27,453 nucleotides of DNA from a virus, in IMG/VR virus record IMGVR_UViG_3300042923_000274, positions 1-27,453 of that record. One strand, 5' to 3'. Positions 10,140 to 18,962 of this stretch are shown here, piece by piece; position 1 is the stretch's first letter; each line of letters opens with the position of its first letter. Made by a program: the position numbers and the translations under genes. The notes under the pieces were generated by a model that was given only the letters and a program-made list of their open reading frames with translations, was not told the DNA's origin and made no database searches.

Positions 10140-10165
10140 CAGTCTCAATGTCGAAGGGAAATGTG

Positions 10166-10238
10166 CTGGCTCGGCAGGGTTCGAACCTGCGCGCTTCCGA
10201 TTAACAGTCGGATGCTCTGCCTACTGAGCTACAAGCCA
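10166..10238 (-). tRNA. tRNA-Asn (GUU)
   Basis: A complete 73-nt cloverleaf: acceptor TGGCTTG/CGAGCCA plus discriminator G, D arm GCTC/GAGC, anticodon arm TCCGA-CTGTTAA-TCGGA with anticodon GTT, variable loop AGCGC, T arm GCAGG-TTCGAAC-CCTGC. The CCA end is not encoded. All stems pair, apart from one G-U in the acceptor. It lies 27 nt upstream of the leader of the HNH gene, likely co-transcribed with tRNA-Thr. Confidence 0.95.
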
Positions 10239-10504
10239 ATGCACACCCAGCCAGAGGCAGATGAGGTCTTGACTCATCCGCATGGCGGGTGGCTGGTGCA
10301 GCAGTTTTGGTTTGGACTCACCTGACGGACCACCGCGTGAAACCGTTCAGCCGACCTAAATACCTCACGGAGCAGTATCGGCAAATGCTTCCTGAGAGGG
10401 GAAAGTGTCTGCGTCCCCTGCAAGGGCTGGTAGCTGACCGTGTGCCCTACACCTCGCATCGGCACCTTGTCGTGAAACCCGTTTGCAGACGGGAGCGAGG
10501 TATG
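10239..10504. other. Spacer between the two tRNA genes
   Basis: These 266 bases lie between tRNA-Thr and tRNA-Asn. I see no gene with a credible start, codon pattern or overlap coupling, and no third cloverleaf. There is a short hairpin after tRNA-Thr (10478-10493), and GATGAG/CTCATC forms a 6-bp hairpin just upstream of tRNA-Asn. It could hold processing signals for the tRNA transcript. Confidence 0.5.
10475..10493 (-). terminator. Weak terminator-like hairpin after tRNA-Thr
   Basis: On the minus strand CCCGT-CTGCAA-ACGGG is followed directly by TTT, 12 nt after the tRNA-Thr 3' end. The 5-bp stem and short T run make this a weak intrinsic terminator at best. A processing hairpin is equally possible. 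Confidence 0.35.
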
Positions 10505-10578
10505 TGCCGCCACGAGGTCTCGAACCCCGCACCCTCCGCTTACAAGGCGGACGCTCTAGCCAGATGAGCTATGGCGGC
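10505..10578 (-). tRNA. tRNA-Thr (UGU)
   Basis: A complete 74-nt cloverleaf: acceptor GCCGCCA/TGGCGGC plus discriminator A, D arm GCTC/GAGC, anticodon arm TCCGC-CTTGTAA-GCGGA with anticodon TGT, variable loop GGGTG, T arm CGGGG-TTCGAGA-CCTCG. No CCA is encoded. The UGU anticodon reads ACA, a rare codon in GC-rich hosts, which fits the usual pattern of phage tRNAs. Confidence 0.95.
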
Positions 10579-15735: not shown

Positions 15736-15980
15736 GCCTGTTCTCCTGTCGTTTCGAGTTCCCGGTAGAACCGGTCGAAGTTTCGTTGACTGATCCGAAC
15801 CACCGCGGCACGTTCACCCGGCAGCACATCCGCGTACACCCACCCGAGATAATGGCCAGCCCTACGCGGGAACGCATCAACAACCCGCACCGGTCGGTCC
15901 CATCGCTGCCAGCGTCGGTTGAACCCGTACTGGGTGAGGAGTTCCCCACGCTTCGTTGCAACAGCCTCGCTATACGACAT
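15732..15980 (-). CDS. Hypothetical protein, duplicated 5' end
   Basis: An 82-residue basic protein (MSYSEAVATKRGELLTQYGF ... NFDRFYRELETTGEQA) with no family I can name. It is arginine- and aromatic-rich and may be a small RNA/DNA-binding or enzyme-associated protein. The first 15 codons plus flank (15931-15982) are copied almost exactly at 16779-16830, where they begin a truncated 23-codon frame. The C-terminus ETTGEQA is encoded by the ribosome binding site of the next gene. The start overlaps the methyltransferase stop by 11 nt. Confidence 0.65.
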   Translation of the reverse strand: MSYSEAVATKRGELLTQYGFNRRWQRWDRPVRVVDAFPRRAGHYLGWVYADVLPGERAAVVRISQRNFDRFYRELETTGEQA

Positions 15981-15982
15981 CA
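15931..15982. repeat. 52-bp direct repeat, left copy
   Basis: Fifty-two bases matching 16779-16830 with one mismatch (T at 15957 against A at 16805). It covers the start of the 82-residue gene and the last codons of the methyltransferase. The two copies flank the methyltransferase and the 47-codon gene. Confidence 0.9.
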
Positions 15983-16617
15983 GGGGGCTCCAGTCCGGTC
16001 GATTGGGGGTCCGGGTCGAACGCGGCCATCGCGACCTGTAGGCCCTCGACCGGCACAACGGCGTTGCGCATCGCACGCACTCGATTCGGGACGCTGGCGC
16101 GCTCAAGCCGCGGGAGGCCGTAGGCGTCGGCGAGGTCATTCGCCGACGTGGAGTAGCCCTCCCACGTGCCTATGATGGTTCGCTCCACCGGGGCAAGCAT
16201 CAGCGGCGGCGTGCTCATCCAGTAGTAGTGACGGTCGGTCACCAGATCGGGCAGGATCGCGGGGCGGTAGTAGGTGTGCACGTTCTCAACGACGTACGCC
16301 ACGTCGATCGACGACAGATGAGCGACCTCAGCCATGAGCCGCGGATCGGGCTCGAGCTTCTTGCCGTACCGACTCGCGTTCACCTTCGCAAACCGTGAGT
16401 GCGTCGGGCACGGCGGCGATGTCCACACGGCGTCGAACTCGTGCCCGTGGTCGAGGACGAACGCGTGCGCGTCCGCGACTATCACAGTGTCGTCGGGGTA
16501 GCGCCGCGCGTACTCGGCCGCGACACGCTCGTCGAGTTCGACCGCCGTAATCTGCCACTCACTCGGCCACAGGTGCCGATTCCCGCCGATGCCGGCGTAG
16601 GCGTTCAGCACCCTCAC
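15970..16617 (-). CDS. DNA (cytosine-5) methyltransferase, compact
   Basis: This 215-residue protein has C5-methyltransferase motifs in order: motif I NAYAGIGGNRH (5-15) for AdoMet binding, ELDE (27-30), motif IV TSPPCPTHSR (66-75) with catalytic Cys70, motif VI VENVH (110-114), and a motif IX/X-like end VPNRVRAMRNAVVPVEGLQV (176-195). It is much shorter than typical 300-400-residue enzymes, mainly because the target-recognition region is minimal. It may protect phage DNA from host restriction. The start is GTG at 16617, overlapping the previous stop (GTGA). It sits inside a segment bounded by 52-bp direct repeats, so it may be a recently acquired or removable cassette. No cognate restriction enzyme is nearby. 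Confidence 0.85.
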   Translation of the reverse strand: MRVLNAYAGIGGNRHLWPSEWQITAVELDERVAAEYARRYPDDTVIVADAHAFVLDHGHEFDAVWTSPPCPTHSRFAKVNASRYGKKLEPDPRLMAEVAHLSSIDVAYVVENVHTYYRPAILPDLVTDRHYYWMSTPPLMLAPVERTIIGTWEGYSTSANDLADAYGLPRLERASVPNRVRAMRNAVVPVEGLQVAMAAFDPDPQSTGLEPPDVV

Positions 16618-17122: not shown

Positions 17123-17728
17123 TCAGATGAGGGTGGGGGCGTTGACTTGGCGGAGCCAGCCGAGCACCTTGGGTAGGTTCTGGTCTGGACCGAACACGAT
17201 GAATGTGCCGTCTGCGGAGTCGCATCCGATGGCGTTGGCGTACCGCATTCTGGATGCGGAGTTCACGCGGCCCATGTGGACTTCCTTGCCGCGCTTCTTC
17301 GCCTCCGCGGTGAGCTCGCGGGCATGGCGCCCGAGTTTCCATTCGGTTGACCCGCCAAGGAAGAGGACGTCGAACTCGTCCCACGGCACCCCGACCGTTT
17401 CCGCGCCGTCCTGAGCGACGAATGCGGCCGGGATGCCGAGGGAGCGGATCCGTGGGAGCCACGGGAGAGCTGTCTGCATCGTGACGGCGGCGTCTCCGAC
17501 CACGTCAGGAGCGACGGCGAACCGGCACCGTTCGGCGGGGAGTGTGGTGAGCCATCCCCACCACGCGTCCTCCCCCGGGTAGCCCTTGCCGAATACACCG
17601 TTGTCGGCGCAGAAGAACGCCCCGTCGGGAATCTTGTTTCCCTGACGGGGCGTCACGATGCAGTCGAGCTCTCCTGCTGCCATCCGCTCACGAACTCGCG
17701 GCGTCGACGGATTCGCGAAGTACCGCAT
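17123..17728 (-). CDS. dpdA-like: DpdA-like transglycosylase (TGT family, DNA 7-deazaguanine)
   Basis: The 201-residue protein has segments that line up in order with the tRNA-guanine transglycosylase barrel: CADNGVFG (40-47, cf. D-S-G-G-F-Q of TGT, Asp42), VAPDVVGD (72-79), FVAQDG (103-108, cf. V-Q-G-G), LFLGGSTEWKLG (122-133, cf. A-V-G-E), HMGRVNSASR (151-160, cf. L-M-G-V-G) and IGCDSADGTF (167-176, cf. I-D-M-F-D with the nucleophilic Asp). The TGT zinc motif is absent, as in DpdA proteins, which exchange guanine for a 7-deazaguanine in DNA. The ATG at 17728 follows GAGGCGG and overlaps the deoxyribosyltransferase gene by 41 nt. The neighbouring transporter supports the call. The base inserted is unknown. 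Confidence 0.72.
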   Translation of the reverse strand: MRYFANPSTPRVRERMAAGELDCIVTPRQGNKIPDGAFFCADNGVFGKGYPGEDAWWGWLTTLPAERCRFAVAPDVVGDAAVTMQTALPWLPRIRSLGIPAAFVAQDGAETVGVPWDEFDVLFLGGSTEWKLGRHARELTAEAKKRGKEVHMGRVNSASRMRYANAIGCDSADGTFIVFGPDQNLPKVLGWLRQVNAPTLI

Positions 17729-18086
17729 CAAGATCCGCCTCGGTGCGCACGAGTTGGTGCGAGTGGCAGGCGAGCCACGGGGACACTGGAGCTTCCTCCG
17801 GCACCCAGACGATAGTCGGCATGCCGAGCTGCCACGAGTAGAACACCTCCATCGAAGTGCCGACGCTTGGCTTCGGGCAGTGAGCCACGAAAACTTCGCA
17901 CGAGTCGATGTCGCCCTTGTCGCCCTCGACGATGTCTTCCACGTTCTCGGCCTCGCGGCCTCGGTAGTCGCGGACGGTTGGGTCCACGAACGTGATGTCC
18001 GCGTGGCGGTCGATGAGCGCGTTCCGCCACCCGAACACTTCGTCGTCGGAAGATCCGTTGATCGGCCCAGCCAGGTACACCCTCAC
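17688..18086 (-). CDS. Nucleoside 2-deoxyribosyltransferase-like protein
   Basis: This 132-residue protein has the compact flavodoxin-like plan of the NDT/DUF4406 group: MRVYLAGPING (1-11), W-R at 20-21, IDSCEVFVAHCP (60-71) and VGTSMEVFYSWQLGMP (75-90), where Glu80 matches the catalytic Glu of the G-T-x-x-E motif. Family enzymes cleave or transfer the base of 2'-deoxynucleosides or deoxynucleotides. Beside a DpdA-like enzyme and a deazapurine-type transporter it could act in base or nucleotide metabolism linked to DNA modification, but this is inferred. The GTG start at 18086 overlaps the transporter stop (GTGA). Confidence 0.72.
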   Translation of the reverse strand: MRVYLAGPINGSSDDEVFGWRNALIDRHADITFVDPTVRDYRGREAENVEDIVEGDKGDIDSCEVFVAHCPKPSVGTSMEVFYSWQLGMPTIVWVPEEAPVSPWLACHSHQLVRTEADLDAVLRESVDAASS

Positions 18087-18610
18087 GCTTTCACCACATG
18101 GGATGTCAGGCGGGACCGCACGAGTGAGTACAGGGCGAGGGGAACGATGGTTGCCCACAGCACCTTGCCGATGAACTGCCCGATGATCGATTCCCAGGTG
18201 AGTGGGAACCCGGCGATCCAGAGGAACAGGACGGTGTCGACGGGGGCGGCGACGATGTTCGAGATGAGCGCCGCCTTCACGAACCCTTTCGGTCGGATGC
18301 TGACGTACACGGCCAGGTCGACCAACTCTGCGACCCCGAACGCGACAGCTGACGCGAGCGCGATAGCCGGCGACGCGAAGACCCAAGACAGCGCGATGCC
18401 GAAGCCGATACCGCCAAGAACCCACCAGACGTTCGCGTACCGGTGAACGAAATCGCGCGCGAGGAGGGCGAACCCTGCCGCGTAAGTGCCTGCTGTCACG
18501 ACCAGCCCGAAGCCGACCGGGACCAGACCGAAGTGGAACGTGAGCACGTTGGCTGCGACGATCGCGCCAACGTAGACGGTGACGGCGATTGCCGCCTTGA
18601 GGGTCTTCAT
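18083..18610 (-). CDS. VUT/YhhQ-like 7-deazaguanine precursor transporter
   Basis: A 175-residue integral membrane protein with five or six hydrophobic segments (for example residues 6-25, 33-50, 62-79, 83-104, 118-136, 147-164). Conserved-looking positions are AFGVAELVDLAVYVSIRP (90-107) and ISNIVAAPVDTVLFLWIAGF (116-135), which match the E-x2-D-x3-Y and S-N-x6-D-T patterns of the VUT_1 (YhhQ) family, known to import preQ0/preQ1. The start has GGAG and a start-associated sequence upstream, and its ATG overlaps the previous stop (ATGA). Encoded next to DpdA-like and NDT-like genes, it probably supplies the modified-base precursor. Confidence 0.75.
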   Translation of the reverse strand: MKTLKAAIAVTVYVGAIVAANVLTFHFGLVPVGFGLVVTAGTYAAGFALLARDFVHRYANVWWVLGGIGFGIALSWVFASPAIALASAVAFGVAELVDLAVYVSIRPKGFVKAALISNIVAAPVDTVLFLWIAGFPLTWESIIGQFIGKVLWATIVPLALYSLVRSRLTSHVVKA

Positions 18611-18786
18611 GAGTTTTCTCCAGTGGTGTCAGGAATGAGTTCAAGTCCCGACCAGTGGCCGGGTCCGAGTGTGAGGAAGTGACCGGTTGGGCCGTCGAGC
18701 ACCAGGTAGCCGGACGCGTCGATGTGGACGACTGTCGCTTCTAGGTGGAGTGGCCAGGAACTGGGCCTACGGATCGTCGTTTTCAT
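18607..18786 (-). CDS. Hypothetical 59-residue protein
   Basis: A small beta-rich protein: MKTTIRRPSSWPLHLEATVV, then HIDASGYLVLDGPTGHFLTL and a short tail ending DTTGENS. No family is recognised. The strand-turn pattern might be a small barrel or SH3-like fold. The last codons double as the ribosome binding site (TGGAGAAAA) of the transporter gene. It overlaps on both sides (ATGA). Because of this coupling it may be co-expressed with the transporter, but its role is unknown. Confidence 0.6.
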   Translation of the reverse strand: MKTTIRRPSSWPLHLEATVVHIDASGYLVLDGPTGHFLTLGPGHWSGLELIPDTTGENS

Positions 18787-18962
18787 GTGTCCTCCTCTGC
18801 GATCACGGGTGTGCGCTTGTTGTTGGGGCAGTCGGGTCGGCCCCCGGTGAACGGGTTTCGGCATCGTCCGCAGACGTGGGCGGGTGGTTCCGGTGGGGGT
18901 GTCTTCATCTCCCGGAACCAGGCGTCTTGTTCCTTCGACACCCGGTAATAGATGTCATCCAT
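18783..18962 (-). CDS. Small CxxC protein, hypothetical
   Basis: A 59-residue protein starting MDDIYYRVSKEQDAWFREMK with HVCGRCRNPFTGGRPDCPNN, a C-x2-C ... C segment that could bind zinc. A proline-rich linker (TPPPEPP) separates the helix from the zinc part. The ATG at 18962 is 4 nt after the SSB stop. An ATG at 18986 would overlap SSB by 20 nt and add eight residues, and neither has a clear ribosome binding site. The function is unknown. Confidence 0.55.
   Translation of the reverse strand: MDDIYYRVSKEQDAWFREMKTPPPEPPAHVCGRCRNPFTGGRPDCPNNKRTPVIAEEDT

Follow-up and report, generated by a model that had tools for sequence, protein, structure and literature searches.

Three overlapping genes at positions 17123-18610 of the window, encoding a VUT/YhhQ-type transporter, an enzyme with the NDT fold and a small DpdA-like protein (mini-TGT), probably form an import-fed 7-deazaguanine DNA-modification cassette of an actinobacterial phage. 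The assignment to 7-deazaguanine chemistry is well supported, because mini-TGT is repeatedly linked to VUT, QueC/E/D and QueF-like genes and the NDT-like gene recurs. The window spans a whole IMG/VR record of 27,453 bases, which represents a linear piece of a tailed phage genome; the remainder of that genome lies outside. The genes called in it all run on the minus strand, with the terminase, portal, protease and major head protein genes at one end and recombination and HNH genes at the opposite end. The features of the region are as follows:

18607-18864, minus strand: small ORF directly upstream of the transporter and overlapping its start, with no confident family
18083-18610, minus strand: VUT/YhhQ-type transporter, 175 aa, membrane protein (PF02592, 4.8e-10)
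17688-18086, minus strand: NDT/DNPH1-fold enzyme, 132 aa (PF05014, 7.4e-7; AlphaFold model)
17123-17728, minus strand: mini-TGT, DpdA-like single-domain TIM barrel, 201 aa (phrog_15826, 3e-85; AlphaFold model)

The three ORFs were confirmed at these coordinates. The NDT-like ORF begins with GTG and shares 4 bp with the transporter stop (GTGA). The mini-TGT ORF starts with ATG (an in-frame TTG precedes it by one codon), and 41 bp of it are shared with the end of the NDT-like ORF. This gene order and these overlaps suggest translational coupling. The start of the small ORF at 18607-18864 is uncertain (an alternative gene call prefers 18786), and we do not count it as part of the cassette function. 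Among the scanned proteins of the 27.5-kb fragment, no QueC, QueD, QueE or FolE was recognised, in agreement with the earlier reading. The window also contains, some 500 bases away from the cassette, a DNA methyltransferase-like gene at 15970-16617 (phrog_363, 1e-14), which may provide a second DNA-protection function. Two tRNA genes, at 10165-10238 and 10504-10578, encode tRNA-Asn(GTT), which is of the queuosine type, and tRNA-Thr(TGT).

The evidence from gene neighbourhoods is stronger than that from fold and residues. Relatives of mini-TGT were gathered from viral contigs, bacterial genomes and phage records, yielding 101 non-redundant loci with context. A VUT gene was found in 60 of the 101 loci, directly upstream and on the same strand in all 59 that were measured, and QueC or QueE in 11. 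VUT and QueC/E were never found together (0/101; P = 2e-5 under independence, with shared ancestry ignored). The Que genes (QueC, QueE, QueD) directly flank mini-TGT in most of the Que-bearing loci, and neither VUT nor Que genes are present in ~ 30% of the loci with context that were seeded with mini-TGT. A QueF-like gene is present in 11 of the 101 loci, and in about ten it lies between VUT and mini-TGT; this family of ~ 85-127 aa scores above the PF14489 cut-off and matches TIGR03139 at 6e-9, below the cut-off of the latter model. With preQ0 genes nearby at these frequencies, mini-TGT shows the linkage expected of DpdA, and the 7-deazaguanine connection first proposed from the window alone is upheld.

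Searches of whole records gave the same picture, with QueC absent from the 25 VUT-type records and Vut_1 absent from the 31 no-VUT records, in accord with the suggestion that the phage imports or scavenges its precursor. An independent sample of 75 loci, seeded with the transporter alone, had mini-TGT immediately downstream of it in 59. That import (VUT) and synthesis (Que) are alternative feeds for mini-TGT is well supported. On the mini-TGT tree, in which most internal branches are weakly supported, the VUT/Que labels need at least nine changes. Strict exclusivity has an exception in the Seuratvirus phiG7 (Escherichia phage), where a Vut_1 gene occurs alongside QueD, FolE and DpdA. A QueD-like match lies ~ 1 kb downstream in the VUT locus L091, and in L207 and L221 VUT stands beside QueC without mini-TGT.

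The transporter passes the Vut_1 profile (PF02592) with 40.4 bits against a cut-off of 27.2. Its best NCBIfam match is TIGR00697, the queuosine precursor transporter (7.7e-6), at 25.8 bits, below the cut-off of 50.95. We regard it as a VUT/YhhQ-type queuosine-precursor transporter with a predicted substrate, which retains its initial classification. YhhQ (COG1738), a preQ0 transporter cited by Hutinet et al. (PMC6884629), belongs to the same Vut_1 family, whereas the phage protein, at 175 aa, is shorter and remains below the TIGR00697 cut-off. Hutinet et al. reported that phage YhhQ does not correlate with any group (PMC6884629). The mini-TGT family is a strong exception to that pattern, as VUT tracks mini-TGT.

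Mini-TGT matches phrog_15826, a family of “unknown function”. Direct searches of Pfam, NCBIfam and the PDB with its sequence gave no TGT match, so family membership is not proved by sequence alone. There was no significant match to the DpdA profiles phrog_887 and phrog_7068 or to the TGT profile PF01702, and BLAST against the DpdA of HRTV-29 also gave no match. The best PDB profile match, Prod 1 (2jve, 0.0046), was judged to be due to chance. A profile-profile comparison (hhalign) of mini-TGT with ten phage DpdA proteins reached 93.6% probability, pairing the mini-TGT motif ADNG (D42) with DSGA of DpdA, and APDVVGD (D75) with LDVIGD.

The AlphaFold model of mini-TGT, built from a 43-sequence alignment, is a TIM barrel with a mean pLDDT of 96.7 and pTM of 0.92. 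It is a single barrel with no extra nucleic-acid-binding domain. In the Foldseek search of the PDB, ribulose-phosphate epimerases ranked above the TGT structures. DpdA (7ui4), the bacterial enzyme that inserts preQ0 into DNA, was matched with E = 4e-4, probability 1.00 and 16% identity. In a viral structure library, phage queuine tRNA-ribosyltransferases were prominent among the named top matches. The predicted structure of the 17123-17728 product thus has both TGT and DpdA among its significant matches, as the TGT/DpdA assignment had anticipated, and by its modelled fold mini-TGT would belong to that superfamily. Because generic TIM barrels come first in the PDB, the fold alone is not specific for TGT/DpdA.

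Across 135 non-redundant relatives, D42, D75, Q106, G126, H151, G153, R154 and D173 are invariant. The motifs ADNG (D42), APDVVGD (D75), VAQDG (Q106) and DSADG (D173) follow the order seen in TGT, as had been noticed in the window. These residues are the ones expected of the TGT/DpdA group, with Q106 and D173 matched only by order and spacing. In Z. mobilis TGT the catalytic aspartates are D102 and D280, and D156 and Q203 bind the base; mini-TGT Q106 would presumably correspond to Q203, and D173 to D280. The invariant residues are consistent with TGT chemistry. In Arthrobacter and mycobacterial phages the family is annotated as “DpdA-like tRNA-guanine transglycosylase”, and our literature search found no functional study of these relatives.

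Insertion into DNA by mini-TGT is our best inference. The canonical TGT (PF01702) was found in 0 of 50 records, and profile searches of the records found phrog_887 only in Sonali; among 16 records, phrog_7068 was likewise detected only in Sonali. Since records with full QueC/E/D sets beside mini-TGT usually lack another transglycosylase that could be recognised, mini-TGT is the favoured candidate for the inserter. Mini-TGT and a normal DpdA coexist in Sonali, L078 and phiG7, meaning that mini-TGT may have an accessory role, as a partner subunit, a free-nucleotide exchange enzyme or hydrolase, or a base remover, while a host or undetected transglycosylase inserts the base. We consider this unlikely. 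The single barrel domain of mini-TGT would fit it, as would its NDT-fold neighbour, which would likewise act on free nucleosides or nucleotides, and some actinobacteria have DNA 7-deazaguanine systems of their own. However, the near-absence of other transglycosylase profiles despite full QueC/E/D sets beside mini-TGT argues against an accessory role, as does the retention of all TGT catalytic-type residues.

Still less probable is that mini-TGT acts on tRNA, placing imported queuine or preQ1 into tRNAs with a GUN anticodon and thereby tuning translation. The TGT-like fold and residues would suit this equally. Q106 is a glutamine like Q203 of bacterial TGT, at a position where the DpdA1 alignment has histidine, and the tRNA-Asn(GTT) of the window is a classic type of TGT substrate. 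On the other hand, no gene for a GUN-anticodon tRNA was found in 60 related loci, and several relatives adjoin DNA-modification DpdA, SSB or recombination genes. Moreover, canonical TGT is missing from most host genomes with the mini-TGT family, including Microbacterium trichothecenolyticum. The latter, the nearest bacterial genome, shows neither QueC nor TGT, and a phage in a host of this kind would have to obtain the base from outside. Other hosts of the family do have QueC. The idea that VUT phages are confined to QueC-less hosts was rejected, as VUT host genomes occur with and without QueC.

The NDT-like protein scores just above the cut-off of PF05014 (Nuc_deoxyrib_tr; 29.8 bits against 28.8), and its AlphaFold model has a pLDDT of 93.7. 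The model matched NDT, MilB and DNPH1 structures at only 14-22% identity. E79, at the nucleophile position, and D55 are invariant in the alignment. The protein shares its fold and these two residues with DNPH1/Rcl, the MilB/BlsM N-hydrolases and NDT (PF05014), and, unlike that comparison set, its gene is found in 7-deazaguanine clusters. The NDT family alignment was too diverse for scanning contigs. Five contigs (the window, L017, L021, L083 and L208) have the gene immediately adjoining the cassette, in four arrangements, with no further NDT matches among the mini-TGT/VUT loci. Both of the closest relatives in phage records belong to 7-deazaguanine clusters: the gene in Aminobacter phage Erebus is flanked by QueD and FolE, and the one in Edwardsiella phage ZHS has QueC, FolE and a queuine tRNA-ribosyltransferase in its vicinity. 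The homologs in PhiCh1 and a Moorella phage are not adjacent to 7-deazaguanine genes; in HRTV-29, DpdA is present elsewhere in the genome. The NDT-fold assignment holds, given the PF05014 score and the NDT-type structure matches, whereas the view that such an enzyme would be unusual in this kind of module does not, since both mini-TGT and DpdA clusters repeatedly include one.

The label “deoxyribosyltransferase-like” was correct for the fold; as to the class, the solved relatives include nucleoside-monophosphate N-glycoside hydrolases as much as deoxyribosyltransferases. The closest solved structure is a 2'-deoxyribosyltransferase, and Hutinet et al. raised undetected 2'-deoxyribosyltransferases as a possibility (PMC6884629). 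Both points would support a true deoxyribosyltransferase that makes 2'-deoxy-7-deazaguanosine, which would be converted to a modified dGTP and incorporated by the polymerase during replication. This route seems to us very improbable, since the sequence-profile matches are nearer to DNPH1/Rcl, YtoQ and BlsM, NDT is missing from most VUT/mini-TGT loci, and DpdA, which belongs to a post-replicative route, coexists with NDT in Erebus and ZHS. On its sequence, the likeliest reading is that the NDT-like protein may be a base-releasing N-glycosidase (DNPH1-like) rather than a transferase. It is hardly credible that the neighbours are everyday genes of nucleotide or vitamin metabolism and that mini-TGT resembles TGT only by a generic TIM-barrel coincidence: the epimerases at the top of the PDB matches and the name of the Vut_1 family (vitamin transporter) would fit, but the QueC/E/D and QueF-like linkage, the exclusivity statistics and the DpdA profile similarity would not.

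The preferred reading, an import-fed cassette that modifies DNA, can be set against known systems. Phage DpdA (DpdA1; CAjan, 9g, Rosebush and Sonali gp87; PMC6884629) likewise combines a TGT-type barrel with a QueC/D/E context, and its motif order DSGAF/LDVIGD/HFGE/GG/VDSSS parallels ADNG/APDVVGD/VAQDG/GG/DSADG of mini-TGT. In contrast, mini-TGT has ~ 200 aa (~ 300 aa in phage DpdA), lacks a single-sequence HMM match, carries glutamine in place of the DpdA histidine, and is usually VUT-fed rather than QueCDE-fed. StevieRay gp54, Aoka gp40 and Sonali gp81, named “DpdA-like” by SEA-PHAGES, belong to the same family, with 56-59% identity over nearly the full length. For these relatives there is annotation only, and our literature search found no account of the linkage to transporter, QueF or NDT genes. 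Bacterial DpdA, the 7ui4 match of mini-TGT, is larger and works within a modification-restriction system of the host. Further DpdA subfamilies were reportedly defined in a 2023 Nucleic Acids Res. study, and the mini-TGT family may overlap with the later-named DpdA3 or DpdA4. Mycobacterium, the genus of M. smegmatis, lacks the 7-deazaguanine pathway (PMC6884629). Relatives of mini-TGT were thus already named “DpdA-like” in databases, and what would be new is an import-fed variant of a known DpdA-type modification.

In the mechanism that we propose, the VUT transporter would supply the infected cell with a 7-deazaguanine base from outside, such as preQ0, preQ1 or a similar one, which the QueF-like protein, if present, would alter. 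Mini-TGT would then swap guanine in phage DNA for this base via a covalent aspartate intermediate. The NDT/DNPH1-fold enzyme, as an auxiliary N-glycosidase, would most likely free or recycle the modified base from nucleotides, or remove modified dNMPs, and the 7-deazaguanine in phage DNA would protect it from restriction. More tentatively, and with somewhat less than even confidence, we suggest a wider picture in which minimal single-domain DNA-guanine transglycosylases working on a scavenged base are widespread, with phages of hosts unable to make preQ0 carrying their own importer, recycling by the N-glycosidase and modification that depends on the chemistry of the environment. If true, many actinophages would modify their DNA with an imported and not a self-made base, and their restriction resistance would hinge on the environment or on nearby microbes. 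Phages with a DpdA-like gene but without synthesis genes would likewise be explained, and mini-TGT may then be the smallest DNA transglycosylase.

Several members of the family have unusual architectures or surroundings. In L023 (5911-7689), mini-TGT forms the N-terminal domain of a protein of 592 aa, whose C-terminal region has no confident family. A short zinc-ribbon-like insertion (CxxC-type pairs) follows the GG motif in L006 (2090-2782) and L013 (6001-6696). A 34%-identical relative in Erythrobacter phage ZS04 (L228, 6001-6642) has been labelled a DarB-like antirestriction protein, yet it has only the length of mini-TGT. In Escherichia phage phiG7 (L148, 4711-5303), two overlapping ORFs each hold a part of mini-TGT, next to a complete DpdA cluster. 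Streptomyces members (L110-L118 and L137) have no nearby VUT or Que genes and lie in a conserved neighbourhood common to several strains. Finally, L083 (1-5566) contains three mini-TGT paralogs, two QueC genes, QueE, QueD and the NDT-like gene in one run.
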